42,594 nt of DNA from Candidatus Woesearchaeota archaeon. GTDB taxonomy: Archaea > Nanobdellota > Nanobdellia > Woesearchaeales > JAGVZT01. Location of the stretch: positions 1 through 42,594 of the forward strand of contig JAGVZT010000065.1 in NCBI GenBank assembly GCA_018302335.1. The letters are read 5' to 3'. Within the stretch, counting starts at the first letter, position 1. Every line of letters starts with the position of its first letter. The position numbers and the translations under genes are program-made. The notes below the pieces were generated by a model, which was given only the letters and a program-made list of their open reading frames with translations, ran no database searches and was not told the DNA's origin. Shown here piece by piece: positions 7,753 to 36,801 of the stretch.

Positions 7753-8292
7753 ATGTCGTTCACCGGATGGCTCGCTAGAGACTCGCTGGAGCGCTCTCTG
7801 CGCGAGCTCTGCCTCCTGCAGCACGATGAGTCGCTCATCTCTTGCATTGAGCTGTCAGACTGGCGGCGCGGCGGGGCGGAGAGCTTCATCGCCGAGGCGG
7901 AAATCCTGTGCAGTTCGTCCGAGGGCGACCGCAGGAGGCGCTTCGTGGCGAAAGCGGTGCTCCCCCCGTTCGGATGGGCTGTCGTGGACTATCTGGCCGA
8001 GATGATGGGACGCAGGACGATGCTGGCAGAGGCGGGCGTTCCGGTAGTCCAGCAGTACGCCGTGCGCGAAGGGGTGCTCTTCCAGGCGCATCTTCCGTAC
8101 AGTGTTTCCGACCTCTACCGTTCAGGGAACTGGGCGGAGCCGATGATGGCACAGGCGCACGACATAGAGCGCAAGGTGAGGGCCCTCGGGTTCCACCCCC
8201 TCAACGTGCTCGCGGACCTCCGCTCGGACGGGGAGAAGCTGTATTACGTGGACTTCGGGGCGGACCTTGGCGGCCCTAGTTCCGCACCATGA
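7753..8292 (+). CDS. Small kinase-like (phosphotransferase-fold) protein
   Basis: A 179-residue protein starting MSFTGWLARDSLE; the start is chosen by TATA spacing. The middle has FVAKAVLPP, resembling the ATP-binding Lys strand of aminoglycoside-phosphotransferase-like kinases. The C-terminus LGFHPLNVLADLRSD...YYVDFGADLGG resembles the catalytic loop (H-x-N) and DFG segment of that fold, with the usual catalytic Asp replaced. It could be a minimal or degenerate kinase, or a nucleotide-binding protein; the assignment rests on motif resemblance only. The 3' end overlaps the convergent nucleotidyltransferase gene by 17 bp. Confidence 0.6.
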   Translation: MSFTGWLARDSLERSLRELCLLQHDESLISCIELSDWRRGGAESFIAEAEILCSSSEGDRRRRFVAKAVLPPFGWAVVDYLAEMMGRRTMLAEAGVPVVQQYAVREGVLFQAHLPYSVSDLYRSGNWAEPMMAQAHDIERKVRALGFHPLNVLADLRSDGEKLYYVDFGADLGGPSSAP

Positions 8293-10156
8293 TCTCGACG
8301 TTCTTGCCGAAGATGCGCTCGAGGTCACCGAAGATGGGTCCCTTGATGAAGACGCGCACGGGGATGCTCACCTTGGCGAGCGCGGCCTCCATCTCCTCGG
8401 CAGAGCTCTTCTCCTCTGCTCCCAGGGAGCCGTCCTCCTTCACCGCCGCCTTCAGAATCTCCTTCTCCTTCGCGTCGATGTCATGGATGATGAACGCCTC
8501 CTTGTCGAGGAGGGTGACCTCGCCGAACTTCTCGCCGTGCTTCACGCGTATCTTGGCGCGCTCCAGCTCCCGGCCGCGCTTCCGCTGCATGTATTCGACC
8601 AGAATGTGGATGAGCTCCCGCGCGCCCTTCTGGACCTCCTCGACCTCGGTGCGGGAGAGCCTCTTGGCGTCGTAATCCTTCTTCGCCTTCACCACGTTCT
8701 TCAGGACGCGGAGGAACTTCTCGGGGACCTTGCCCGAGTTGATGAGCCGCGACTCGAACACCTTCTCGATGTCCGCATCGTCGAGCGACTCCACGCCCTC
8801 GAGCCTGAGCACATCCCTCACCACGGTGACAATCGTCTCGTAGGTCTCGAGCATGCGCTCCTCTTCCTTCATCTTCTCCAGCTGCTTGAAGAGCTTCTCG
8901 ATGCGCTTCAGGTACTTCTCAGCGTTCGTGAGGTACTTGTCGAGCTCTGCACCCGAGAGGTCCTTCTTGGTGCCGTGCTCGATGTCCTTCCGGAGCTGTA
9001 TCTGCTCCTCGAGTATCTTCACGTACTCCGGCTCCAGGAGCTTCTCTTTCTTCACCAGCAGCTCGTCGAGGACCTGGGGTGTCTCTTTCGGGGTGGGGGG
9101 AGTGACGCCATAGAGCATGAGCGCGGCCTGGCTGGGGGTGAGGATCGCGTAGAAGATGTCCTCCATGCCTATCTCCCGGAGCTTGAAGCGCACGCGCTTG
9201 AGGCTCTGCTCCCCGGTGGACATGAAGAGGTCGATCGCCTCCTGCGAGGGCTTGATCTTCCCCTGCTTCAGGAGCTGCTTCCAGGGAGTGAACATCCCGC
9301 GGTCGTAGAACGGCACGCCATCCCTCAGCAGGGTGAAGATGATGGGGTTCGCCTCCCGCAGCGAGAGCCAGAAATCGCTGAGGATGTAGACCTGGATGTT
9401 GATCTTGTTCCGGATGCCGGTCATCTCCCCGGCCTCGATGCCCATCCCGATGATGATGGCGCGGAGCTTGTCCTTGAGCTCGGCGCGCGTCATCTTCTTC
9501 ACGTCGGTGTCGTCGATGACGATGAAGACGTCGATGTCGCTCTGCGGCGTCGCGCGGCCCTGCACCAGTGAGCCCGCGAGGACGTAGCTCACGATGTAAC
9601 GCTCGAACTTCTTCAGGACCATGTTCTTGTGGACCTCGGCGATCTTGATGGCGGCGAGCATGCCGTTGTCGTGCACCGGCGCTGACAGCGCGACGAGCTG
9701 GAGCATGTCGTATTTCGCGTCGTAGCACATCTGCCAAAGCTCGCTGAGGATGAGGGTGTTCGCCGCGAGGTCTGGCGAGACCTCCCTGCCCATCTTCTCG
9801 ATGATGGCCGTGAGCTTGGTGCGCAGCTCCTCCTTGCTCATCTTCTGGCTGTCGGAGTCGTCCACGAGGACGAGGACATTGATGGTCTTCACGTCCGCGG
9901 CTTCGCCCTCCTTCGGCTTCTTCGGGGGGAGGAGCGCGATGCCCATGACATACTTGTCGAACTTCTCCAGCACGCGGGACTTGAACTTCTCCACCAGCCC
10001 GGTGATTTCCTTGAGGCGCTCTTGGGCCTCCTTGGGCAGCTTGGCCTGGAGCTGTTTCTGTATCTCCTCCATGTGGTGCTGGCCCTCTGCCTTGGGGGTT
10101 GCCGACGGTGAATCTTGCTGCGCAGGGCGCGGAGAAGGCTTTGATTTCTTGGACAT
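8276..10156 (-). CDS. Protein with two nucleotidyltransferase-fold domains and long helical tail
   Basis: A 626-residue protein. Start MSKKSKPSPRPAQQDS at 10156 is fixed by a TATA box 26-34 bp upstream; the open frame extends further but lacks support. After a low-complexity N-terminus, a first domain (around DVKTINVLVLVDDSD) looks like a nucleotidyltransferase fold without the GS motif. The second, around residues 195-215, has the full signature (AGSLVQGRATPQSDIDVFIV), i.e. GS plus D-x-D. The C-terminal half is highly charged and helical or coiled coil. Duplicated domains with one degenerate copy suggest an intramolecular pseudo-dimer. The substrate (RNA, tRNA, protein AMPylation) cannot be inferred. 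Confidence 0.75.
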   Translation of the reverse strand: MSKKSKPSPRPAQQDSPSATPKAEGQHHMEEIQKQLQAKLPKEAQERLKEITGLVEKFKSRVLEKFDKYVMGIALLPPKKPKEGEAADVKTINVLVLVDDSDSQKMSKEELRTKLTAIIEKMGREVSPDLAANTLILSELWQMCYDAKYDMLQLVALSAPVHDNGMLAAIKIAEVHKNMVLKKFERYIVSYVLAGSLVQGRATPQSDIDVFIVIDDTDVKKMTRAELKDKLRAIIIGMGIEAGEMTGIRNKINIQVYILSDFWLSLREANPIIFTLLRDGVPFYDRGMFTPWKQLLKQGKIKPSQEAIDLFMSTGEQSLKRVRFKLREIGMEDIFYAILTPSQAALMLYGVTPPTPKETPQVLDELLVKKEKLLEPEYVKILEEQIQLRKDIEHGTKKDLSGAELDKYLTNAEKYLKRIEKLFKQLEKMKEEERMLETYETIVTVVRDVLRLEGVESLDDADIEKVFESRLINSGKVPEKFLRVLKNVVKAKKDYDAKRLSRTEVEEVQKGARELIHILVEYMQRKRGRELERAKIRVKHGEKFGEVTLLDKEAFIIHDIDAKEKEILKAAVKEDGSLGAEEKSSAEEMEAALAKVSIPVRVFIKGPIFGDLERIFGKNVEIMVRN

Positions 10157-10181
10157 GGTTCTCACTGGAGAGTCAGGCCAT

Positions 10182-10190
10182 CTTTTAAAG
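10182..10190 (-). promoter_or_regulatory. TATA box for the nucleotidyltransferase gene
   Basis: CTTTAAAAG on the minus strand, 26-34 bp before the start at 10156. Confidence 0.55.
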
Positions 10191-10195
10191 GCTTC

Positions 10196-10230
10196 GGCCG
10201 GGCCGTGGAGAAAACTCCCCGTTTTCGGCC
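10196..10230. repeat. Short GGCC-bounded palindrome next to copy 4
   Basis: A 35-bp element from GGCC to GGCC containing a GGAG/CTCC inverted core. It shares its right-hand GGCC with the full-length copy starting at 10227, giving a tandem arrangement. Confidence 0.5.
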
Positions 10231-10297
10231 GGGGTGCCGTGTGATTTCCGCGGTGTCTCGCCGGCATGCGGCAAATCCTCACCCGTGCGACCGGGCC
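10227..10297 (-). repeat. Dispersed GGCC-bounded repeat, copy 4
   Basis: A 71-bp copy. Its reverse complement carries the conserved blocks GCCGCATGCCGGCGAGACA and CGGAAATCACACGGCACC. It lies between the end of the herA-like gene and the promoter of the nucleotidyltransferase gene. Confidence 0.75.
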
Positions 10298-10311
10298 CCG
10301 CTCCTGGCCGC

Positions 10312-11610
10312 TCAGAAGAGGCGCTTCTTCGCCTCCAGAATGCTCGGCGAGGATCCGCCGTGCCAGCTCTTCCGCGGCCGGATGCACATGGGATAGAGGC
10401 GCTCGTTCATGTCATCGAAGACGATGGCCGCGCCGTCCTGCCGCGGCAGATCGTTGACGTATCGGTCGAGGCCCTCGCGCATGTAGCTCTGCATCAGGGC
10501 GCCGAGAGCGTCGATGTCTAACTTCGCGGTGATGCGGTGCGAGATGACGATGTCGCTCTGGGTCATCACGTCCGTGTGTATCTTGCCCGGCTGCTGGCTC
10601 GCGAGCACGAGCGAGATGCCCGGCTGCCGCCCCTCGCGGAGAATCCTGATGAGCGGCTCCGACGCGAGAGTGCTCCCCTCCAGGGGAAGGAACTCGTGCG
10701 CCTCGTCCAGCAACAGCCACACCATGGGGGTCTCGCTCTGGCGGGGCACCTCGAAGATGGACGTCCCCGCTCTGACGTCGGCGTACTCCTCGTTCCTTCT
10801 CGCGAGGAGACGCTCGGCGAACATCCGCTGGGAGAGCAGCCCGATGACCAGGGCGCGGAGCCTGTCGGACGCGGCCATGGTCGCGTAGCAGCTCAGGTCA
10901 AGCACCGCCAGAGAGCCTGGCCGTATCAGCTCCTTGAGTGGCGTGCCCTCCTCGCTGAAGAGCCCCCAGTCCTCGGCTGCGAGGAACCGGTTCTCCACCG
11001 CGCGGCGCACTTCCTCGGTGAAACCCTTTGCCTCCCGTACCTTCTTGAGGACGTCCTTCAGCGAGAATTCGTCCCCGAGGGAAGCGAGCATCCGTTCCAC
11101 CATGACTCCCATGGGCTCGTTCAGGGTGAGGCCGAAGACCTCGCACCACTGGTACGCGTCAAGCTCATTGGCCCGGATGGAGAACGGCCTGTCCGCGGGA
11201 ATGCCCTTCTCCTTGAAATCCTCAAAGTGGCCGGCCGGGGTGTAGATAGTGACGTCCATCCCCTTGGGCTCGAGCCCCCATTCCTGGAGGAGCTTCGCGT
11301 CGTGGTTGTTCGGATACTTCATGGTCCAGAACACCCCCATGGTATCCAGGATGATGACGCTGACGCGCTGGGAGAGCTCTGCCGGAAGGTCGAGAAGCCC
11401 CTCCGCGATGACGCCGAGGGAATAGCTCTTCCCGGAGCCGCGCTTCCCGCATACGAACACCACATGGCTGGTCGAGACGTCCATGTGGACCATGTTCGCC
11501 AGCGAGGTGGTGCGGTCCATCTTCACGTACTGCTTGCCCAGCTGGACCGTCCCTTCGGTGCCGAGCTTCTGCCGCCGGTCCTCCGAGCGCCCGATGACGA
11601 TGTCGAACAT
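10312..11610 (-). CDS. HerA-like ATPase (FtsK/HerA superfamily)
   Basis: A 432-residue P-loop ATPase starting MFDIVIGRSEDRR, with a TATA box 24-30 bp upstream. The short N-terminal beta-barrel-like region is followed by Walker A (GKRGSGKS, K61) and Walker B (VWLLLDEAHEFLP), then the HerA-type segment LVLASQQPGKIHTDVM. HerA ATPases form hexameric DNA translocases, usually with the NurA nuclease in end resection. No NurA is adjacent, so this may be a HerA paralogue with another role. The neighbour downstream on the same strand encodes the double nucleotidyltransferase protein, but it has its own promoter. Confidence 0.88.
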   Translation of the reverse strand: MFDIVIGRSEDRRQKLGTEGTVQLGKQYVKMDRTTSLANMVHMDVSTSHVVFVCGKRGSGKSYSLGVIAEGLLDLPAELSQRVSVIILDTMGVFWTMKYPNNHDAKLLQEWGLEPKGMDVTIYTPAGHFEDFKEKGIPADRPFSIRANELDAYQWCEVFGLTLNEPMGVMVERMLASLGDEFSLKDVLKKVREAKGFTEEVRRAVENRFLAAEDWGLFSEEGTPLKELIRPGSLAVLDLSCYATMAASDRLRALVIGLLSQRMFAERLLARRNEEYADVRAGTSIFEVPRQSETPMVWLLLDEAHEFLPLEGSTLASEPLIRILREGRQPGISLVLASQQPGKIHTDVMTQSDIVISHRITAKLDIDALGALMQSYMREGLDRYVNDLPRQDGAAIVFDDMNERLYPMCIRPRKSWHGGSSPSILEAKKRLF

Positions 11611-11633
11611 CGGTAAAAGCGCGGTCAAGAGAC

Positions 11634-11640
11634 TATTTAA
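11634..11640 (-). promoter_or_regulatory. TATA box for the HerA-like gene
   Basis: TTAAATA on the minus strand, 24-30 bp before the start at 11610. Confidence 0.5.
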
Positions 11641-11691
11641 GCCCTGCGGTTGGCGGCCTGACGGAAAAGTTCGATAATCGGTGCCCAGTCC

Positions 11692-11735
11692 GGCCGCCTT
11701 GCTGGAGAATTTCCGCCCCGACGAAACCTACGGCC
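11692..11735 (+). repeat. Dispersed repeat, truncated copy 5, reaching into endA
   Basis: A forward left half (GGCCGCCTTGCTGGAGAAT, then TTCCGCCCCGACG) followed by GGCC at 11732-11735. The end overlaps the last codons and stop (11728-11730) of endA, so the element contributes the 3' end of that gene. Confidence 0.6.
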
Positions 11736-12303
11736 GCATCCAGCGGACTTCGTAATACGTCACATCGCCCTCGTCATCCACGATGGCGAGCATCAGCCGC
11801 TTCTTGGTGCTGTGGGCGACGCGGTTCTTCGCGGCGAACTCGTGCCAGGTCATCGAGCCGGACTCGTGCACCGGGTACACCACCCACCGCGCGTGGTCGT
11901 CCCCGGGCTTGACGCCGCGGTCGTAGACCCGGAAGTCCGCCCCAAATTTCAGGGCGGTCTTCACCACGTACCCGCGCGCGCGGAGGTTCTTGAAGACGGA
12001 ATAGCGGACCCAGAGCTGGGGCTCCTCGCGGCGCTCCTGCTTCAGCAATGTCTCGAAGGCTATTTCCCTCTCCCGGCCATCGAGGACCTTCAGGCGGCCC
12101 TTCTCCAGGAGGTAGAGCGTGTCCATGAGGGAGAGGTGGACCTTGCCGTCGTCGGTCGGCTTGCCGAAGCCGCTCTGGGAGAAGAGCAGCCGGGCCGCGT
12201 CCGTAGCCTCGGTCACGACGCGGTTCCGGGAGTAATGCGCGACGATACGCTCCACTTCCGGCGCAGGGCTCTCGTCGGGCTTCCGCTCGGTCTTCCGGGG
12301 CAT
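11728..12303 (-). CDS. endA: tRNA-splicing endonuclease
   Basis: A 191-residue archaeal tRNA intron endonuclease, the homotetrameric single-domain size class. It cuts the bulge-helix-bulge at exon-intron junctions of pre-tRNA and pre-rRNA. The catalytic triad is in place: Tyr127 (FRVYDRG), His137 (GDDHARWVVYPV) and Lys168 (HSTKKRL), with the family's usual spacing of 10 and about 31 residues. The N-terminal 20 residues are a charged extension. Start ATG 12303 is fixed by a TATA box 22-30 bp upstream. Confidence 0.93.
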   Translation of the reverse strand: MPRKTERKPDESPAPEVERIVAHYSRNRVVTEATDAARLLFSQSGFGKPTDDGKVHLSLMDTLYLLEKGRLKVLDGREREIAFETLLKQERREEPQLWVRYSVFKNLRARGYVVKTALKFGADFRVYDRGVKPGDDHARWVVYPVHESGSMTWHEFAAKNRVAHSTKKRLMLAIVDDEGDVTYYEVRWMRP

Positions 12304-12324
12304 GGCATGCCGGAGGCTGCCCTG

Positions 12325-12333
12325 CTTTATAAG
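12325..12333 (-). promoter_or_regulatory. TATA box for endA
   Basis: CTTATAAAG on the minus strand, 22-30 bp before the start; leaderless spacing. Confidence 0.6.
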
Positions 12334-12394
12334 CGTTCCCGGATTAATCCACTGGAGGACCACAAAATTTAAATAGAAAGGTACAAATAGTTAC

Positions 12395-12460
12395 TACTAG
12401 CAGATAGAAATTATTACGGGTCGTAGGTGAGCCGCGCGGCGCCCGTCGGGGCGCGGCCGG
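12395..12460 (+). ncRNA. Candidate small RNA or structured leader between two TATA boxes
   Basis: The 196-bp gap between endA and the membrane-protein operon is AT-rich on the left, with a TATA-like AAATTTAAATA at 12364-12374. It then turns abruptly GC-rich. A strong hairpin can form at 12431-12457 (GCCGCGC pairing with GCGCGGC), with a competing inner pairing GCGCCC/GGGCGC. The second TATA box (12469-12478) lies beyond it, so a transcript from the first would be separate. This is structure only; no known RNA family was recognised. Confidence 0.2.
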
Positions 12461-12468
12461 AGCACAAG

Positions 12469-12478
12469 ATTAATAAAG
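12469..12478 (+). promoter_or_regulatory. TATA box for the membrane-protein operon
   Basis: ATTAATAAAG lies 22-31 bp before ATG 12500. Confidence 0.5.
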
Positions 12479-12499
12479 AGCGAATGTGCGGTGAGACCC

Positions 12500-13051
12500 A
12501 TGGTGGAACCATCAAGCTTCAGGGGAGCACTCGACCTTTTCAACCGGCTGGGCCTGTACGATGTGGTGCTGCCGTTCCTGCTCATCTTCACCCTTGTCTT
12601 CGCTCTGCTGGAGAAGACGCGCGTACTCGGCACGGAGGACGTGGACGGGAAGCCATTCCCGAAGCGCAACCTCAACTCCATGATGGCATTCGTCATCGCC
12701 CTCTTCTTCGTGGCGTCGGCCGAGATGGTGCACATCGTCACCGAGGTCAGCACCCTCACGGTGCTCTTCCTCCTTGGCAGCGTGCTTTTCCTGCTGCTCA
12801 TCGGCTCCTTCCACGAGCAGACCGACTCTGGCTTCTTCATTAAGGAGGGCGCCCTGCGGACCTTCTTCATCATCATCATGCTGGTCTCGCTCATCCTCAT
12901 CTTCATGCACGCGGTGGGATGGCTGGGCACCCTGATGAACTTCCTCAGGGATAACTGGCAGAGCAACCTCGTCGCGACGGTGGTGTTCCTGCTGCTCATC
13001 TTCGGCGCGATATGGTTCATCGTGGGGGACAATTCTGGAAAGAAGAAGTAA
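12500..13051 (+). CDS. Polytopic membrane protein, paralogous set member 1
   Basis: A 183-residue protein with about four to five hydrophobic segments: VVLPFLLIFTLVFALLE, MMAFVIALFFVASA, VLFLLGSVLFLLLIGSF, FFIIIMLVSLILIFMHAV and VVFLLLIFGAIWFIV. The N-terminal block LGLYDVVLPFLLIF...ALLEKTRVLG recurs in the next two genes, so the three are tandem paralogues. Similar small multi-spanning proteins are common in DPANN-type genomes, without known function. First gene of a three-gene operon. Confidence 0.8.
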   Translation: MVEPSSFRGALDLFNRLGLYDVVLPFLLIFTLVFALLEKTRVLGTEDVDGKPFPKRNLNSMMAFVIALFFVASAEMVHIVTEVSTLTVLFLLGSVLFLLLIGSFHEQTDSGFFIKEGALRTFFIIIMLVSLILIFMHAVGWLGTLMNFLRDNWQSNLVATVVFLLLIFGAIWFIVGDNSGKKK

Positions 13052-13063
13052 GGAGGAAACAAC

Positions 13064-13624
13064 ATGGCAGTCTATGATTTCAACCAACTGATGGCGGACC
13101 TGAACAACTACGGCCTGAGCGCGGTGTTCCTGCCGTTCCTCCTCGTGTTCGCCCTGGTGTATGCCATTCTGGAGAAGATACGCATCTTCGAGAAGAAGAG
13201 CGTCAATGTCATCATCGCGTTCGTGATGGGATTCCTGGTCGCGTCCAACAGCTATGTGGTGGGCATCATCGCCAGGTCCCTCCCTAACGTGAGCGTGGTG
13301 CTCATCGCCCTGCTCAGCGTCATCCTCATCATAGGCATCTTCGGCTACCGGCTGCATCTCCACGAGTCCGGGGCAGGCGGGCTCATCGCCATGCTCGCCT
13401 TCGTGGTGGTCGCGTATATCTTCGCCCGCGCCGCCAACTGGGGGGTGCCGGGCCTGCCATGGCCGTTCAACATGCTGGACAACCCGGACACTCGCGCCAT
13501 CGTGGTGGTGTTCGCAGTGTTTTTCATCCTCATCTGGTACATCACCAAGGAGGACAAGGCCAGCAGCACCGGAATGGGCATCGGGCGCGTGCTCGACGAG
13601 TTCCGGCACATGCTGAAGCCCTGA
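13064..13624 (+). CDS. Polytopic membrane protein, paralogous set member 2
   Basis: A 186-residue paralogue of its neighbours with YGLSAVFLPFLLVFALVYAI, then EKIRIF near the N-terminus. Further hydrophobic segments are VIIAFVMGFLVASNSYVVG, VSVVLIALLSVILIIGIFGY, GGLIAMLAFVVVAYIFA and IVVVFAVFFILIWYI. ATG 13064 is preceded by AGGAGGAA, one of the best Shine-Dalgarno sequences in the window, as expected for an internal operon gene. The C-terminus is short and cytoplasm-like (RVLDEFRHMLKP). Confidence 0.8.
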   Translation: MAVYDFNQLMADLNNYGLSAVFLPFLLVFALVYAILEKIRIFEKKSVNVIIAFVMGFLVASNSYVVGIIARSLPNVSVVLIALLSVILIIGIFGYRLHLHESGAGGLIAMLAFVVVAYIFARAANWGVPGLPWPFNMLDNPDTRAIVVVFAVFFILIWYITKEDKASSTGMGIGRVLDEFRHMLKP

Positions 13625-13628
13625 GGAG

Positions 13629-14195
13629 ATGGCGACCCTCCTCGAGTCCAGCATCGTGGACCTCGGGATACTGGAGGGCCTGTCCGCCATCTTCATGGTC
13701 ATCCTGGTCTTCGTGCTTATCTACGCACTGCTGCAGAAGACCCAGGCCCTAGGCGGCAAGCCCTCGCTGGACGCGTTCATCGCCATCGCGGTGAGCATGA
13801 TCATGCTCATCTCGTCAACGGTGATGGAAATCATCGCGAAGATGACTCCCATCTTGGTGCTGCTGCTCTTCATGGCGATGTTCCTCCTCATAGCGACGCG
13901 CTTCATAGGCGTCGAGGACAGCAGCATCGTCACCATGCTCGGCGGCCAGAACGCAGCCTGGTGGTTCATCGTGGTGGGCATCCTGGTATTTCTGGGCGCC
14001 GCGGGGCAGGTTGTGGGCCCGCTGCTGGCATCAGGGAGCCCCGCTGAGGCTGTCCAGCCCAGCGAACCGGGCGCCACGGGCACGGGTGACTACAGCACCG
14101 ATTTGCGCAACACCCTGTTCCACCCCACGTTCCTGGGGATGATTGTGCTCCTGCTGATAGGCAGCTTCACCGTGCGCACGCTGGTCATGAAGTAG
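13629..14195 (+). CDS. Polytopic membrane protein, paralogous set member 3
   Basis: A 188-residue paralogue with GILEGLSAIFMVILVFVLIY, then ALLQKTQALG at the N-terminus, and segments AFIAIAVSMIMLISSTVME, ILVLLLFMAMFLLIATRF, WWFIVVGILVFLGAAGQVVG and LGMIVLLLIGSFTVRTLVM. A Pro/Ser/Gly-rich loop (residues about 137-155) before the last helix is unique to this copy. It starts 4 bp after the stop of the previous gene. Possibly a structural ring or platform with its paralogues (inference). Confidence 0.8.
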   Translation: MATLLESSIVDLGILEGLSAIFMVILVFVLIYALLQKTQALGGKPSLDAFIAIAVSMIMLISSTVMEIIAKMTPILVLLLFMAMFLLIATRFIGVEDSSIVTMLGGQNAAWWFIVVGILVFLGAAGQVVGPLLASGSPAEAVQPSEPGATGTGDYSTDLRNTLFHPTFLGMIVLLLIGSFTVRTLVMK

Positions 14196-14209
14196 GCCCA
14201 ACTATATCT

Positions 14210-14273
14210 GGCGGCGCGCCGTATGCGTTCCGGATGGTCCTACCGGCATACCGGGAATCATCAGCATGACCGC
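14210..14273 (-). repeat. Dispersed repeat, copy 6 (diverged ends)
   Basis: A 64-bp copy whose reverse complement has CATGCTGATGATTCCCGG, then TATGCCGG and CCGGAACGCATACGG. The outer ends have drifted from GGCC. It fills the gap between the convergent membrane-protein operon and the coiled-coil gene. Confidence 0.6.
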
Positions 14274-14293
14274 TCCTTCACGAGCCTAAGGAG

Positions 14294-15139
14294 CTACTTC
14301 CTGCGCCTCTCCTTGAGCTCGTCCTTGAGCTTTCCCAACTCCGCGACGCTGGAACTCAGCTCCGGGATAATCTTCTGGAACACCTTCTCCATCCCCTTCA
14401 TCTCGGTGCCCACGTCCCGGATGTTCTGGTCGTACTCGGTTATCTTGCCGAGGACGCTCTCGTGCAGCTTGTCGAACTCATCCTTGAGCTCCTTGAACTG
14501 GCCTTCCATCTCGATGATGCGCTGGTCCACGCGCTGCTTCCACTCGATGATCTTGTTGATGTGCTTCATCAGCTCCTTCCACTTCTCGTCGATAATCGCC
14601 TCGGCAATCTCCTCGATGTGGTCGGTGGAGTCAATCTGCTGACCGGGAGAGGACTGCTGCTCGCCATAGGCCTGCTCTTGATATGGCTGGGCATATGGCT
14701 GCTGGGCTGGGTAGGGCTGCTGCGCGGGATGCGGCCCTGGAAAGACCGGCTGGGTCTCCGAGGTGAAAGGAGTGAAGCTCTCGTCGTGTGCCGGCTCCCG
14801 CACCGCGGGCTGCTCAATCGAAGGCTGCACCATGGGGTTCTGCTGGGGCCACGGACGGAGCGGCTCCTGCTGGTAGTAGGGGGATATCTGAGCCTCTGCA
14901 GGCTGCTGCGGGGGCTGCACATCGTGGCCCACTGGCTGGCCGGTCTGCAGGTCAGCCTGGTTCATGGCATCGAATATCTGGTGGCTCTTGTAGCCGCTCC
15001 TCTGCAGGGCCTGGATGATCTGGTTGCTGCTCAGACCCTGGCGCCGCATGGAAAGGACATCTTGCACTGGCACCGCGGGCGCTGAAGGCTGCGGGAAGAG
15101 GGGTTCCTCCTTCTTCTTGCCCAGGTTGAAGATGGCCAT
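14294..15139 (-). CDS. Pro/Gln-rich linker plus coiled-coil protein
   Basis: A 281-residue cytoplasmic-looking protein. Residues about 25-65 (VQDVLSMRRQGLSSNQIIQALQ, then YKSHQIFDAMNQAD) look like a small UBA-like helical domain. Residues about 68-170 are a Pro/Gln/Tyr-rich disordered linker with AQQPY repeats. Residues about 172-281 are a long charged coiled coil (EWKQRVDQRIIEMEGQFKEL and onwards). This layout resembles archaellum FlaC/D/E or scaffold proteins in general terms, but no family is recognised. It is followed on the same strand by nothing, and lies between the membrane-protein operon and another coiled-coil gene. Confidence 0.75.
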   Translation of the reverse strand: MAIFNLGKKKEEPLFPQPSAPAVPVQDVLSMRRQGLSSNQIIQALQRSGYKSHQIFDAMNQADLQTGQPVGHDVQPPQQPAEAQISPYYQQEPLRPWPQQNPMVQPSIEQPAVREPAHDESFTPFTSETQPVFPGPHPAQQPYPAQQPYAQPYQEQAYGEQQSSPGQQIDSTDHIEEIAEAIIDEKWKELMKHINKIIEWKQRVDQRIIEMEGQFKELKDEFDKLHESVLGKITEYDQNIRDVGTEMKGMEKVFQKIIPELSSSVAELGKLKDELKERRRK

Positions 15140-15160
15140 GCTTCTCTTGGCTCCCCGGCA

Positions 15161-15169
15161 CTTTTTAAA
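15161..15169 (-). promoter_or_regulatory. TATA box for the Pro/Gln-rich gene
   Basis: TTTAAAAAG on the minus strand, 22-30 bp before start 15139, overlapping the last codons of the upstream gene. Confidence 0.55.
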
Positions 15170-15632
15170 CGTTGTGCTTCTTTCCCTGACGGATGCGCTC
15201 CTCGACGGCCTCGCCGATGAGTTTCTCCGCCTCTTTCCTCGTGAGGAACTCCATGGGGTTCCAGAGGGTCACATACTTCTCGAGCACCTGAAGGTCCTCC
15301 TTCCGGGGGACGTTGCGAAACTCCCGGATGATGAGCGTGACCTTCTCTTCAAGCTCATGCAGTTTCTCGCGGACCTCTTGCATCTCCTCCGCGTGGGCAC
15401 GCAGGTCGCCGTGGAGCTTCTGGCTGCTCTCGATGAGGTTGTGGTCGCTCAGCTGGATGCGTTTCGAGAGATTGACGACGCGTTCCTCGGCAATCTTCAC
15501 GCGCCTGCCGAGGGAGCCGAGCTGGTCCAGGAATTCCTGCAGGGAAACCGCTGTCTGTGCCGGCTGCTCCTGCTGGCCGCCCTGCTCGTAGAGCTTCTCC
15601 GAGTTCTCCTGCTCCTTGCTGAAGAGTCCCAT
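15165..15632 (-). CDS. Coiled-coil protein, possibly archaellum/pilus accessory-like
   Basis: A 155-residue, almost entirely helical protein. After a Gln-rich N-terminus, residues about 30-115 form heptad-rich coiled coil (RRVKIAEERVVNLSKRIQLS, LHGDLRAHAEEMQEVREKLH). The C-terminal part (WNPMEFLTRKEAEKLIGEAV) resembles the WNP/LT-like end of archaellar FlaC/FlaD/FlaE accessory proteins; this is an impression only. Its neighbours are an FlaI/TadA-type ATPase and another coiled-coil protein, supporting a role in the same membrane machine. Confidence 0.75.
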   Translation of the reverse strand: MGLFSKEQENSEKLYEQGGQQEQPAQTAVSLQEFLDQLGSLGRRVKIAEERVVNLSKRIQLSDHNLIESSQKLHGDLRAHAEEMQEVREKLHELEEKVTLIIREFRNVPRKEDLQVLEKYVTLWNPMEFLTRKEAEKLIGEAVEERIRQGKKHNV

Positions 15633-15726
15633 CCCGCTTGCGACAGTTTTATAAAGTGGCTTGCCCAGGTCCGCACGAGCGGGGGGACGCCACAGACAGG
15701 CCGCTATACACCTCGCTGGAAAAATT

Positions 15727-15734
15727 CCTATAAG
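15727..15734 (+). promoter_or_regulatory. TATA-like box upstream of the small ORF and ATPase
   Basis: CCTATAAG lies 15-22 bp before ATG 15749 and about 95-100 bp before the ATPase ATG at 15828. It fits transcription starting at or near the small ORF. Confidence 0.4.
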
Positions 15735-15748
15735 AACTTTGCGGTAAG

Positions 15749-15826
15749 ATGGGGTTTGCAGATAAGGTCAAGGGCAGGGTCAGCAGCGCTGCGGCCGAGG
15801 CACGCGATTTTCTAGGGAGTCGGTAA
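15749..15826 (+). CDS. 25-residue ORF directly before the secretion ATPase gene
   Basis: ATG 15749 to TAA 15824-15826 encodes a short peptide, MGFADKVKGRVSSAAAEARD plus FLGSR, with amphipathic-helix character. The stop ends one base before ATG 15828 of the ATPase, a spacing that suggests translational coupling. A TATA-like box precedes it. The frame differs from that of the ATPase, so it is not a simple N-terminal extension. It may be a real small protein, a leader peptide, or chance. Confidence 0.4.
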   Translation: MGFADKVKGRVSSAAAEARDFLGSR

Positions 15827-15827
15827 G

Positions 15828-18116
15828 ATGCTGTTCGAACGTGGTCTCCAGGCGGGGGAGTACGAAATCGTCCATGAGGGGGACGATACCATTCTCAAGG
15901 TGAACTATGAGGGCTCGAACATCGCGCCTTCCCTGGAAGACGACGCGATGTGCATGTCCCGCACCGTCTCCAGGCTTGTGGAGAATCTTGACGTCACCAA
16001 GATCATCTTTCTGGAGAAGCGGGATTTTGAGTACAGTTTCGAGCAGACCCAGCTCCTCCTTGAGTTCGCCGGAATCTTCAAGAAGCTCCTCAAGGAGAAA
16101 GATATGTTCAGCTACCAGCTCCTCGCTGCGGACTACCCCTCGCGCGTCCTCCATCAGAGATACACTGAGCTGCGGAATCTCATCCATAACACCCTCCGCG
16201 CGGACCCCATCGGTGCCTATGTGCAGCTGCGCCGCATCTCCAGGCGGGAGCGCATCGAGCTCGAGAAGGAGATTGACGAGCAGTACATCGAGGCCATCAA
16301 GAAGTACCTGACGCTGGTGGACTATGTTCTCGGGCTGCTGGAGAAGACCAAGCTGGTCGCACAGGTGAAGCCCTACCTTGCAGGCTACCGCACGGGCGAC
16401 CGCACCCTCTACCGGAAGCTCTTCTCTCCCATCATCAAGCCCGACTTCATGTTCACCAAGCTCATGGCATCGTTTCCCGCCCAGGGCGAGGAAATTGACA
16501 GCTACTCGCTTCCCGACGGGACCGAGGTCACCATCTTCCGCGTTCCGGAGACTATCCAGCCGCTGTACCATCTCATCCCTCCCGAGTTCAAGCTGTCCGA
16601 GGAGAAATACGAGATCCTGGACCTCGCCAGGAACATCATCTCGGAGCACAAACCCAGCAGGCAGGAGTTCGTGGAACCGACGAGGATGCGGCAGGTCTTC
16701 CACAATGTGGGTCACGACCTCATCGAGGAGCTTACGTCCTACCGGAACCTCAAGCTCCGGGCGAAGGAGATTGACGAGCTTGCGGCCATCCTGGTGCGCT
16801 ACACCGTCGGCTTCGGCCTCATAGAGGTCATCCTGCAGGACCCGCAGGTCCAGGACATCACGGTCAACTCGCCTCCCGGCCAGATTCCGCTTTTCCTGGT
16901 CCACGGGAAGCATGAGAATTGCTACACCAACATCATCCCCACCAAGACCGAGGCGGAATCCTGGGCCACCAAGCTCCGGCTTGTCTCTGGAAGACCCCTT
17001 GATGAGGCCAATCCCATCCTCGACACCGAACTCCTGCTTCCGGGGGCAAGGGCGAGAGTGGCCGCGGTGGCAGAACCCCTGAATCCGCAGGGCCTCGCCT
17101 TCGCCTTCAGGAGACACAGGGATAAGCCCTGGACGCTACCGCTCTTCATGAGCCAGGGCATGCTCAACGCCCAGGCTGCTGGCATCCTGAGCTTCCTCAT
17201 CGACGGCTCGCGCACCTTCCTGGTCGCGGGCACTCGCTCAGCAGGAAAGACCTCCCTGCTCGGCGCGATGATGGTGGAGATCATGCGCCGCTACCGTATA
17301 ATCACCATCGAGGACACTTTGGAGCTTCCCACCACCTCGCTGCGCAAGATTGGCTTCAACATTCAGCCCCTGAAAGTCCAGGGAGCGCTGACCCACGGCA
17401 CGACCGAGGTGAGCGCGGAGGAGGGCATCCGCACCACTCTCAGGCTGGGTGACAGCGCGCTCATCGTCGGCGAGGTGAGGAGCGACGAGGCCAGGGCCCT
17501 GTATGAGGCGATGCGCGTCGGCGCGCTGGCCAACGTGGTCGCGGGCACCATCCACGGAGACAGTCCGTATGGCGTGTTCGACCGCGTGGTGAACGACCTC
17601 AAGGTGCCCAGGACCAGCTTCAAGGCGACCGACATCGTGGTGGTGGCCAATCCCATCCGCTCCGCGGACGGGCTGCACCGCTGGCGCCGCGTCACCCAAA
17701 TCACCGAAGTCCGGAAAAAATGGGAGGAGGACCCGCTCGCCGAAGGCGGCTTCGTGGACCTCATGCGCTACAACTCCATCACCGACAGCCTTGAGCCAAG
17801 CCACGACCTCATCAACGGGGACAGCGAGATTCTCAAGTCCATAGCAGGCAATATCAAGGAGTACGCGGGCAACTGGGATGCGGTGTGGGACAACATCATG
17901 CTCCGCGCGAAGGTGAAGGAGACCCTTGTTCAGTATGCGACGAAGGCGGCGATGCCGGACCTGCTCGAGGCGGATTTCGTTGTCCTGTCCAATGATGAAT
18001 TCCACCGGAGGAGCGACCAGGTCCGCGAGGAGAGCGGCAACCTGGACTCCAAGAGGATTTTTGTCCAGTGGGAGGAGTGGCTCAAGCGGGAGATACGGAA
18101 GCGCAAGCCGGCCTAG
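15828..18116 (+). CDS. Type II/IV secretion (GspE/TadA/FlaI family) ATPase
   Basis: A 762-residue hexameric-type secretion ATPase that would power assembly of a type IV pilus-like filament or secretion of folded substrates. The N-terminal about 300 residues are a large specific domain rich in charged helices. The core follows: VILQDPQVQDITVNSP, Walker A (GTRSAGKT, residues 468-475), the ITIEDTLELP Asp box, Walker B region (SALIVGEVRS, Glu549) and the His box (AGTIHGDSPYGVFDR). About 120 further residues lie after the core. No platform (TadC/FlaJ) gene is adjacent. Stop overlaps the stop of the next minus-strand gene at CTAG. Confidence 0.9.
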   Translation: MLFERGLQAGEYEIVHEGDDTILKVNYEGSNIAPSLEDDAMCMSRTVSRLVENLDVTKIIFLEKRDFEYSFEQTQLLLEFAGIFKKLLKEKDMFSYQLLAADYPSRVLHQRYTELRNLIHNTLRADPIGAYVQLRRISRRERIELEKEIDEQYIEAIKKYLTLVDYVLGLLEKTKLVAQVKPYLAGYRTGDRTLYRKLFSPIIKPDFMFTKLMASFPAQGEEIDSYSLPDGTEVTIFRVPETIQPLYHLIPPEFKLSEEKYEILDLARNIISEHKPSRQEFVEPTRMRQVFHNVGHDLIEELTSYRNLKLRAKEIDELAAILVRYTVGFGLIEVILQDPQVQDITVNSPPGQIPLFLVHGKHENCYTNIIPTKTEAESWATKLRLVSGRPLDEANPILDTELLLPGARARVAAVAEPLNPQGLAFAFRRHRDKPWTLPLFMSQGMLNAQAAGILSFLIDGSRTFLVAGTRSAGKTSLLGAMMVEIMRRYRIITIEDTLELPTTSLRKIGFNIQPLKVQGALTHGTTEVSAEEGIRTTLRLGDSALIVGEVRSDEARALYEAMRVGALANVVAGTIHGDSPYGVFDRVVNDLKVPRTSFKATDIVVVANPIRSADGLHRWRRVTQITEVRKKWEEDPLAEGGFVDLMRYNSITDSLEPSHDLINGDSEILKSIAGNIKEYAGNWDAVWDNIMLRAKVKETLVQYATKAAMPDLLEADFVVLSNDEFHRRSDQVREESGNLDSKRIFVQWEEWLKREIRKRKPA

Positions 18117-18361
18117 GAGACAGGCTCCAGGAGAAAGCGTAGCAGGAGCGCCGCCCAAAAGCATCCGAGGCCAGCGAGGTAGTACGCGCGACGCACCTCG
18201 TCCGGAAGGGCCGAGAGGCTGGTGGTGAAGGCCAGCAGGGTCCCGAAGGCCCCGAGCGCGAAGATGATGAGGCGCCCGAGGCTGTGCTGCCCGGGCCCTG
18301 CCCCCCTGAGGAGCTGCAGGTCGCTCCTCATGAGCAGCCCGGGAGTGTCATAGGTGCTCAT
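18113..18361 (-). CDS. Small two-helix membrane protein
   Basis: An 82-residue protein with two hydrophobic segments (LIIFALGAFGTLLAFTTSL and AYYLAGLGCFWAALLLRFLL) separated by a short charged loop. It starts 14 bp inside the 3' end of the Hef gene on the same strand; an alternative internal ATG at 18331 would give 72 residues and no overlap. Function unknown. Confidence 0.6.
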   Translation of the reverse strand: MSTYDTPGLLMRSDLQLLRGAGPGQHSLGRLIIFALGAFGTLLAFTTSLSALPDEVRRAYYLAGLGCFWAALLLRFLLEPVS

Positions 18362-36213: not shown

Positions 36214-36444
36214 TCACAGGAGCTTCAGGAACTCCTCCCTGGACAAACGTACGTCGTGCTTCATGATTTTGTGGAGCAGTCCGCGGTCAAGCTTTTCTCC
36301 TGGATGGTTCGGAATCACGGTCGTCCTGCCATCAGCATGCTTGAAGAACAGGTGGCTCCCCCTCTGTCGCAGGCACCTGAACCCCAGCCTGACGAGAATC
36401 ACAGCTAGGTCCCTAGCGGTCAGCAGCGGCAGGCGCATCTTCAC
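36214..36444 (-). CDS. hicA: HicA family toxin (mRNA interferase)
   Basis: A 76-residue HicA/YcfA-like protein with the double-stranded RNA-binding-like fold: TARDLAVILVRLGFRCLRQR, then GSHLFFKHADG with the catalytic His, then VIPNHPGEKLDRGLLHKIMK. HicA toxins cleave mRNA and are held inactive by HicB. Start GTG 36444 overlaps the hicB stop (GTGA); ATG 36438 is also possible. Order is antitoxin first, toxin second. Located between direct repeats after the fumarate reductase operon, on the opposite strand. Confidence 0.9.
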   Translation of the reverse strand: MKMRLPLLTARDLAVILVRLGFRCLRQRGSHLFFKHADGRTTVIPNHPGEKLDRGLLHKIMKHDVRLSREEFLKLL

Positions 36445-36647
36445 GCTTCGACGTCAATCTGCCGGATGCCGACGAATCTCGTCAACCTCTGCGGTTTCTC
36501 GGCCTCGAGATAGACCAGAATCGCTTTCCTCGTGCGCCTGATGAGCTCCTCATAGGATTTCGCCTGGGAACGGCATCCAGAAAGCTCCACGACCTCGGAG
36601 AGGAGATAGCCGTCCTCTCCTTCTTCGATGATGATGGTGAACTTCAT
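36441..36647 (-). CDS. hicB: HicB family antitoxin (short form)
   Basis: A 68-residue HicB-like protein: MKFTIIIEEGEDGYLLSEVV, ELSGCRSQAKSYEELIRRTR. It has the partial RNase H-like fold but no C-terminal DNA-binding domain, so it may not repress its own promoter by itself. Start ATG 36647 fits a TATA box 24-33 bp upstream. Coupled to hicA by a 4-bp overlap. Confidence 0.88.
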   Translation of the reverse strand: MKFTIIIEEGEDGYLLSEVVELSGCRSQAKSYEELIRRTRKAILVYLEAEKPQRLTRFVGIRQIDVEA

Positions 36648-36670
36648 CGGTTCGAGAGGTGCGCTGTCGC

Positions 36671-36680
36671 GTTTAAATAG
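36671..36680 (-). promoter_or_regulatory. TATA box for hicBA
   Basis: CTATTTAAAC on the minus strand, 24-33 bp before the hicB start. The rest of 36648-36801 shows a possible degenerate trace of the dispersed repeat (around 36727-36785), too weak to list as a copy. Confidence 0.55.
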
Positions 36681-36801
36681 GTTTCTCGCGGATCGCTCGG
36701 CTTCCATGCCATAGCTGACCTTGACCGCCTTGATAAGTCTTTACCAGGAAAATCCGGAAAGTTCACGGCACGAGCGGAGTTCCCCACGGGTCATGCGGGT
36801 C

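Follow-up and report, generated by a model that had tools for sequence, protein, structure and literature searches.

The closest described relatives of the system considered here are two conserved loci that Hamm et al. 2024 (PMC11291902) reported from cluster 2 DPANN archaea. Both encode CpaF, TadC and coiled-coil proteins; in the main text of that paper pilins are given for locus 1 only, locus 2 is placed in Woesearchaeota, Pacearchaeota, Nanoarchaeota, Aenigmarchaeota and others, and the coiled-coil proteins are likened to the viral attachment protein sigma-1. Two other machines share parts of this equipment: archaeal pili, whose pilins are often encoded apart from the motor ATPase (PMC4858521), and the archaellum, with its probable scaffold, a cytosolic ring of ArlX or ArlCDE (PMC8978795). 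Cultivated Nanobdellota, for their part, attach to hosts by large organelles of unknown molecular identity (PMC11104419, PMC11420986). Here we analyze a gene set in a 42,594-nucleotide stretch of contig JAGVZT010000065.1 (the window, hereafter) from a Candidatus Woesearchaeota archaeon (assembly GCA_018302335.1; 1.56 Mb, 93% complete). It encodes three related membrane proteins (M1 to M3), two coiled-coil proteins (CC1 and CC2) and a secretion ATPase (Table 1), which belong, with a platform protein encoded on another contig, to one conserved module of five families. We consider it probable, though well short of assured, that in DPANN archaea the module is a machine of the type IV filament kind, to which M1 to M3 would add a membrane collar and CC1 and CC2 a cytoplasmic scaffold.

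In gene content the module resembles locus 2, for which the published text gives a CpaF-type ATPase, TadC and coiled-coil proteins and lists no pilin; the motor and coiled-coil part is therefore not new. The match was made on gene content, the published coiled-coil proteins NAR1_03220 and NAR1_01690 being known by description. The gene content of the relatives matches the published description; in this genome the platform lies on a separate contig. The three five-helix proteins are not mentioned in the main text of the paper, to which the comparison applies. Like archaeal type IV and Tad pili, the system has a T2SSE ATPase, a T2SSF-fold platform, and putative class III prepilins with a peptidase elsewhere in the genome; it differs from them in its platform, a single fused protein of about 711 residues, in an extra N-terminal region of the ATPase, in the added M trio and coiled coils, and in having no co-located pilin. 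The archaellum (ArlI, ArlJ and the ArlX/ArlCDE ring) offers a functional parallel only, that of an ATPase, a platform and a probable cytoplasmic scaffold: the five-helix trio has no archaellum counterpart, and no archaellin or ArlH-type gene was recurrent among 82 clustered loci.

The genes listed in a preliminary description of this DNA are real open frames in the order it gave, and those of the module do stay together in relatives, with M1 no more than 12 kb from the ATPase gene in 72 of 113 genomes. The order M1-M2-M3, CC1, CC2, ATPase, platform is repeated there with small rearrangements. Gene clustering of the 82 fetched loci found the ATPase in 65, CC1 in 61, M proteins in 59, CC2 in 54 and the platform in 53, the absolute counts for the first three being biased because the loci had been picked around the ATPase, M or CC1; the next family occurs in 22 of the 82, and only these five recur in more than 27%. 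An ATPase match was present in 143 of the 145 genomes of the order, nearly always at an orthologue-level score, and M proteins were present in 138 of them and, over the window's phylum as a whole, in 189 of the 194 genomes sampled, some as small as 0.5-0.6 Mb. The linkage pattern recurs in a second DPANN phylum, reached through an Aenigmatarchaeota locus, where 56 of 57 genomes carry M proteins and 55 carry CC1. Losses also tend to coincide: among the 145 genomes, 7 lack M proteins and 8 lack the orthologous ATPase, 5 of them shared (P = 2e-6, a value inflated in part by incomplete assemblies). A platform search found G041 (97% complete) and G140 (90%) without a platform as well, and G067 with a full one.

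The motor was recognized correctly from the outset as a secretion ATPase: it matches PF00437 at E = 7e-15 (56 bits against a cut-off of 24.9), the Walker A motif is present in all 43 of the sequences checked, CpaF and FlaI structures are matched, and its nearest records come from Woesearchaeota and Nanoarchaeota. Its matches to the TadA equivalog TIGR03819 (133 bits; cut-off 373) and to the archaellum equivalog FlaI NF058587 (121 bits; cut-off 550) both fall below the thresholds that would place it in either family, the second far below. About 290 residues at the N-terminus form the extra region, for which no Pfam match was found. Among relatives, the catalytic region of the ATPase is interrupted by an intein with a LAGLIDADG domain at L085:2888-7111, L106:3051-6836 and L112:10537-14280, and six genomes of the order (G007, G038, G052, G062, G103 and G142) have a long ATPase open frame like that of the intein-bearing relatives.

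In most relatives the ATPase gene is directly followed by one for a membrane protein about 700-760 residues long. The orthologue in the window's genome was found on contig C47 (370-2505, minus strand; 711 residues), which ends about 370 bases beyond the gene; it is 49% identical to the platform adjoining the ATPase in L006. With the profile of this family, a conventional T2SSF protein that the genome also encodes is matched at E = 7e-6, and profile-profile comparison aligns the cytoplasmic region of T2SSF at E = 2.3e-4 with a probability of only 44%; 5 of 20 members give a sub-threshold PF00482 match, none above the Pfam cut-off, and a sequence search of the family against PDB gave no match. 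The predicted structure (predicted local distance difference test score, pLDDT, 78; predicted template modelling score, pTM, 0.73) shows the GspF layout in two successive repeats, and a Foldseek search aligned it with the OutF and EpsF cytoplasmic domains at a probability of 0.99-1.0 and a template modelling score of 0.69-0.72 relative to the target. Four lines of evidence, drawn from sequence and model, thus identify the C47 gene as the predicted TadC/FlaJ-type platform with two GspF-like halves. The preliminary description had stated that neither a platform nor a prepilin peptidase is present; this is right in that neither adjoins the window genes, and wrong for the genome, which encodes both, with PF01478 peptidases on contigs C70 (46.6 bits) and C3 (27.5 bits; cut-off 26.5). 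Three further ATPase-platform loci, some accompanied by class III-signal proteins, also occur in the genome.

M1, M2 and M3 are the distinctive part of the module. Their paralogy, proposed on inspection, is borne out by BLAST (29-30% identity, E = 1e-10 to 1e-15) and, for M1/M2 against M3, by a profile-profile probability of 99.3%. M1 probably starts at the ATG at 12500, since its orthologues, which open with MVEESIFRG or MVEQSVFRG, begin at the equivalent residue. Each protein has five hydrophobic segments, a basic loop after helix 1 and a basic C-terminus, a distribution of loop charge that suggests an N-terminus outside and a C-terminus inside. An AlphaFold model of M1 (pLDDT 80, pTM 0.48), of moderate confidence, found no match by fold among PDB or viral structures at E < 0.001, and the M1/M2 family gave only weak, inconsistent matches to Pfam and PHROGs. 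For the M proteins, as for the coiled coils, the searches gave no informative relative; we found no description of the trio, which has no counterpart among known families and may supply a part of the pilus-type machine that had been missing. With M1 as query, the genome yielded only the window trio and one truncated M1 copy, and no M protein at the three other ATPase-platform loci. The truncated copy (C42:40340-40543; L071 about 10341-10544, minus strand) is 65% identical across its first 72 residues before it is cut off by a stop, and is perhaps a pseudogene.

Table 1. Genes of the module that lie in the window, with the basis of each assignment
Gene	Coordinates	Strand	Product	Basis
M1	12500..13051	+	About 183 residues, five-helix membrane protein	Open reading frame, five transmembrane segments
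M2	13064..13624	+	186 residues, M1 paralogue	Open reading frame, 29% identity to M1
M3	13629..14195	+	188 residues, more divergent paralogue	Open reading frame, profile-profile E = 7e-21 against M1/M2
CC1	14294..15139	-	N-terminal helical module, Pro/Gln linker, C-terminal coiled coil	Alignment, hydropathy
CC2	15165..15632	-	Coiled coil, conserved C-terminal LEKYxxxWxPxxFVT motif	Alignment, hydropathy
ATPase	15828..18116	+	762 residues, T2SSE/TadA-type secretion ATPase	PF00437

In the mechanism that we propose, a hexamer of the ATPase, whose motor identity is evident from its sequence, would drive the TadC/FlaJ-like platform encoded on C47, the two repeats of which are seen in its model. M1, M2 and M3, with their predicted five-helix topology, would surround the platform as a hetero-oligomeric collar within the membrane, and CC1 and CC2, which are soluble, would form a cytoplasmic scaffold or ring tying the collar to the ATPase, as is thought for ArlX/ArlCDE; this last likeness is an analogy and not a homology. 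As ATP drives the platform to move, prepilin-like substrates from genes elsewhere in the genome would be drawn out of the membrane. Several observations weigh against the proposal. Gene linkage is the basis for the collar and scaffold roles; 41 of the 113 genomes do not have M1 within 12 kb of the ATPase (38 with the genes on other contigs, many assemblies being fragmented, and 3 with them farther apart on the same contig); G113 has the ATPase and platform with no M protein detected; the Foldseek E-values of the platform are weak (0.8-1.3); and no pilin family is conserved in the 82 clustered loci.

The preliminary description was right that no pilin gene lies at the locus, and this proves general across the loci of relatives. 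It would have counted a complete TadC/pilin locus elsewhere for this ATPase as refuting its proposal; the platform half of such a locus exists, and no pilin half came to light. Only L006, L007 and L060 have clear class III-like N-termini downstream of the ATPase. In L007, consecutive genes after the platform (7895-13380), the majority of which have prepilin-type N-termini of class III (KKG/KRG), are the clearest substrate candidates that we saw. In L060 (G086, same family), the ATPase is followed by a 549-residue and, farther on, a 1993-residue protein with class III-like N-termini; no platform lies downstream of the ATPase there, and the platform is seemingly displaced in this family too. An alternative to a filament-type machine would be one that makes no pilus: with a motor borrowed from pili, the ATPase and platform would use M1 to M3 as a conduit and export or insert non-pilin proteins or lipids at the point of host contact. 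The module's want of a conserved pilin is consistent with this, as is the listing of pilins for locus 1 only in the text of PMC11291902, and the attachment organelles of Nanobdellota leave room for such a machine. However, because archaeal pilins are so often encoded apart from the ATPase, a missing pilin at the locus does not prove that there is no pilus; the window's genome has prepilin peptidases and, elsewhere, class III-signal proteins; and no conserved charged residue was found within the hydrophobic helix cores of M1 to M3, which makes an ion-driven stator or channel less likely. We regard a filament-less machine as unlikely on balance. A bolder proposal, that the module is the core of the apparatus by which DPANN archaea attach to hosts, a pilus-derived motor without a pilin of its own in which the trio serves as a novel kind of conduit through the membrane, or of assembly ring, where host and archaeon meet, strikes us as somewhat more doubtful still.

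A further possibility is that the trio and the two coiled-coil proteins make up a membrane complex of their own, which only happens to neighbor the pilus motor. G111, in which M1-M3-CC1-CC2 lie about 27 kb away from the ATPase-platform pair, would fit such an arrangement, as would several other genomes in which the two sets are apart. Against it stand the close spacing of M1 and ATPase in most of the genomes compared, the same pattern in the second phylum and the overlap between loss of M and loss of the orthologous ATPase, and we judge a separate complex improbable.

The coiled-coil proteins have been read in quite another way. Following the sigma-1 likeness in Hamm et al. 2024, they could be secreted, virus-attachment-like adhesins, and besides the prediction in the text of that paper our CC profiles do give weak sigma-1 matches (6gao, 6gaj); keratin, tropomyosin and designed coiled coils are matched about as well, however, and the likeness looks generic. 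Neither a signal peptide nor a transmembrane segment was seen in CC1, and by hydropathy 28 of 30 CC1 homologues and all 32 CC2 homologues lack a transmembrane segment; this total of 60 in 62 favors a cytoplasmic place for these soluble proteins. The short conserved N-terminal helical module of CC1 is UBA-like by eye, and its NCBIfam matches are to generic coiled coils and nothing else. CC2 had been labeled FlaC-like, a name we do not retain: no FlaC family stands among the first 25 of its 76 weakly matching Pfam families. Weak Nup54-type Pfam matches of the CC proteins agree with a nucleopore remark in the text of Hamm et al. 2024. The CC genes are linked, moreover, to the motor and M genes and not to surface genes. 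Taken together, the evidence favors a role in scaffolding the motor over one as adhesins at the surface, and we hold the adhesin reading to be very unlikely.

Finally, the suggestion that M1 to M3 stand in for the TadC/FlaJ platform, which arose because none adjoins the ATPase in the window, is refuted by the orthologue on C47, by the platform gene that most relatives carry next to the ATPase and by the lack of homology of M1/M2 to platforms, and leaves room for an accessory role. Profile-profile comparisons of M1 to M3 as TadC/FlaJ relatives were negative: hhalign gave M1/M2 a probability of 0.2% against the platform orthologue family and 0.6% against conventional T2SSF platforms, and hmmsearch likewise found no match.

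Some neighboring genes complete the description. A two-helix open reading frame (82 residues; 18113-18361, minus strand), counted as a member of the set in the preliminary description, follows the Hef gene and overlaps its 3' end by 14 bases; it is not conserved and had no homologue in the relatives searched, and on these two grounds, the overlap and the missing homologues, we leave it out. At 8276-11628 (minus strand), the window encodes a 703-residue nucleotidyltransferase-domain protein with a HerA-like ATPase upstream, and HerA-like genes lie inside or adjoin the module in other loci (L039, L048 and L056). Two small neighboring open reading frames at 36214-36707 (minus strand) resemble, on inspection, a toxin-antitoxin pair of HicA/HicB type.

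The most likely role of the proposed machine would lie in contacting host cells or attaching to them, a role made plausible by the unexplained composition of the organelles through which cultivated relatives attach. The five-helix trio provides a marker of the module that is absent from the main text of PMC11291902, and the seven-gene module itself, near-universal in two phyla of DPANN archaea, which are tiny and probably host-dependent, presents a specific and testable candidate.

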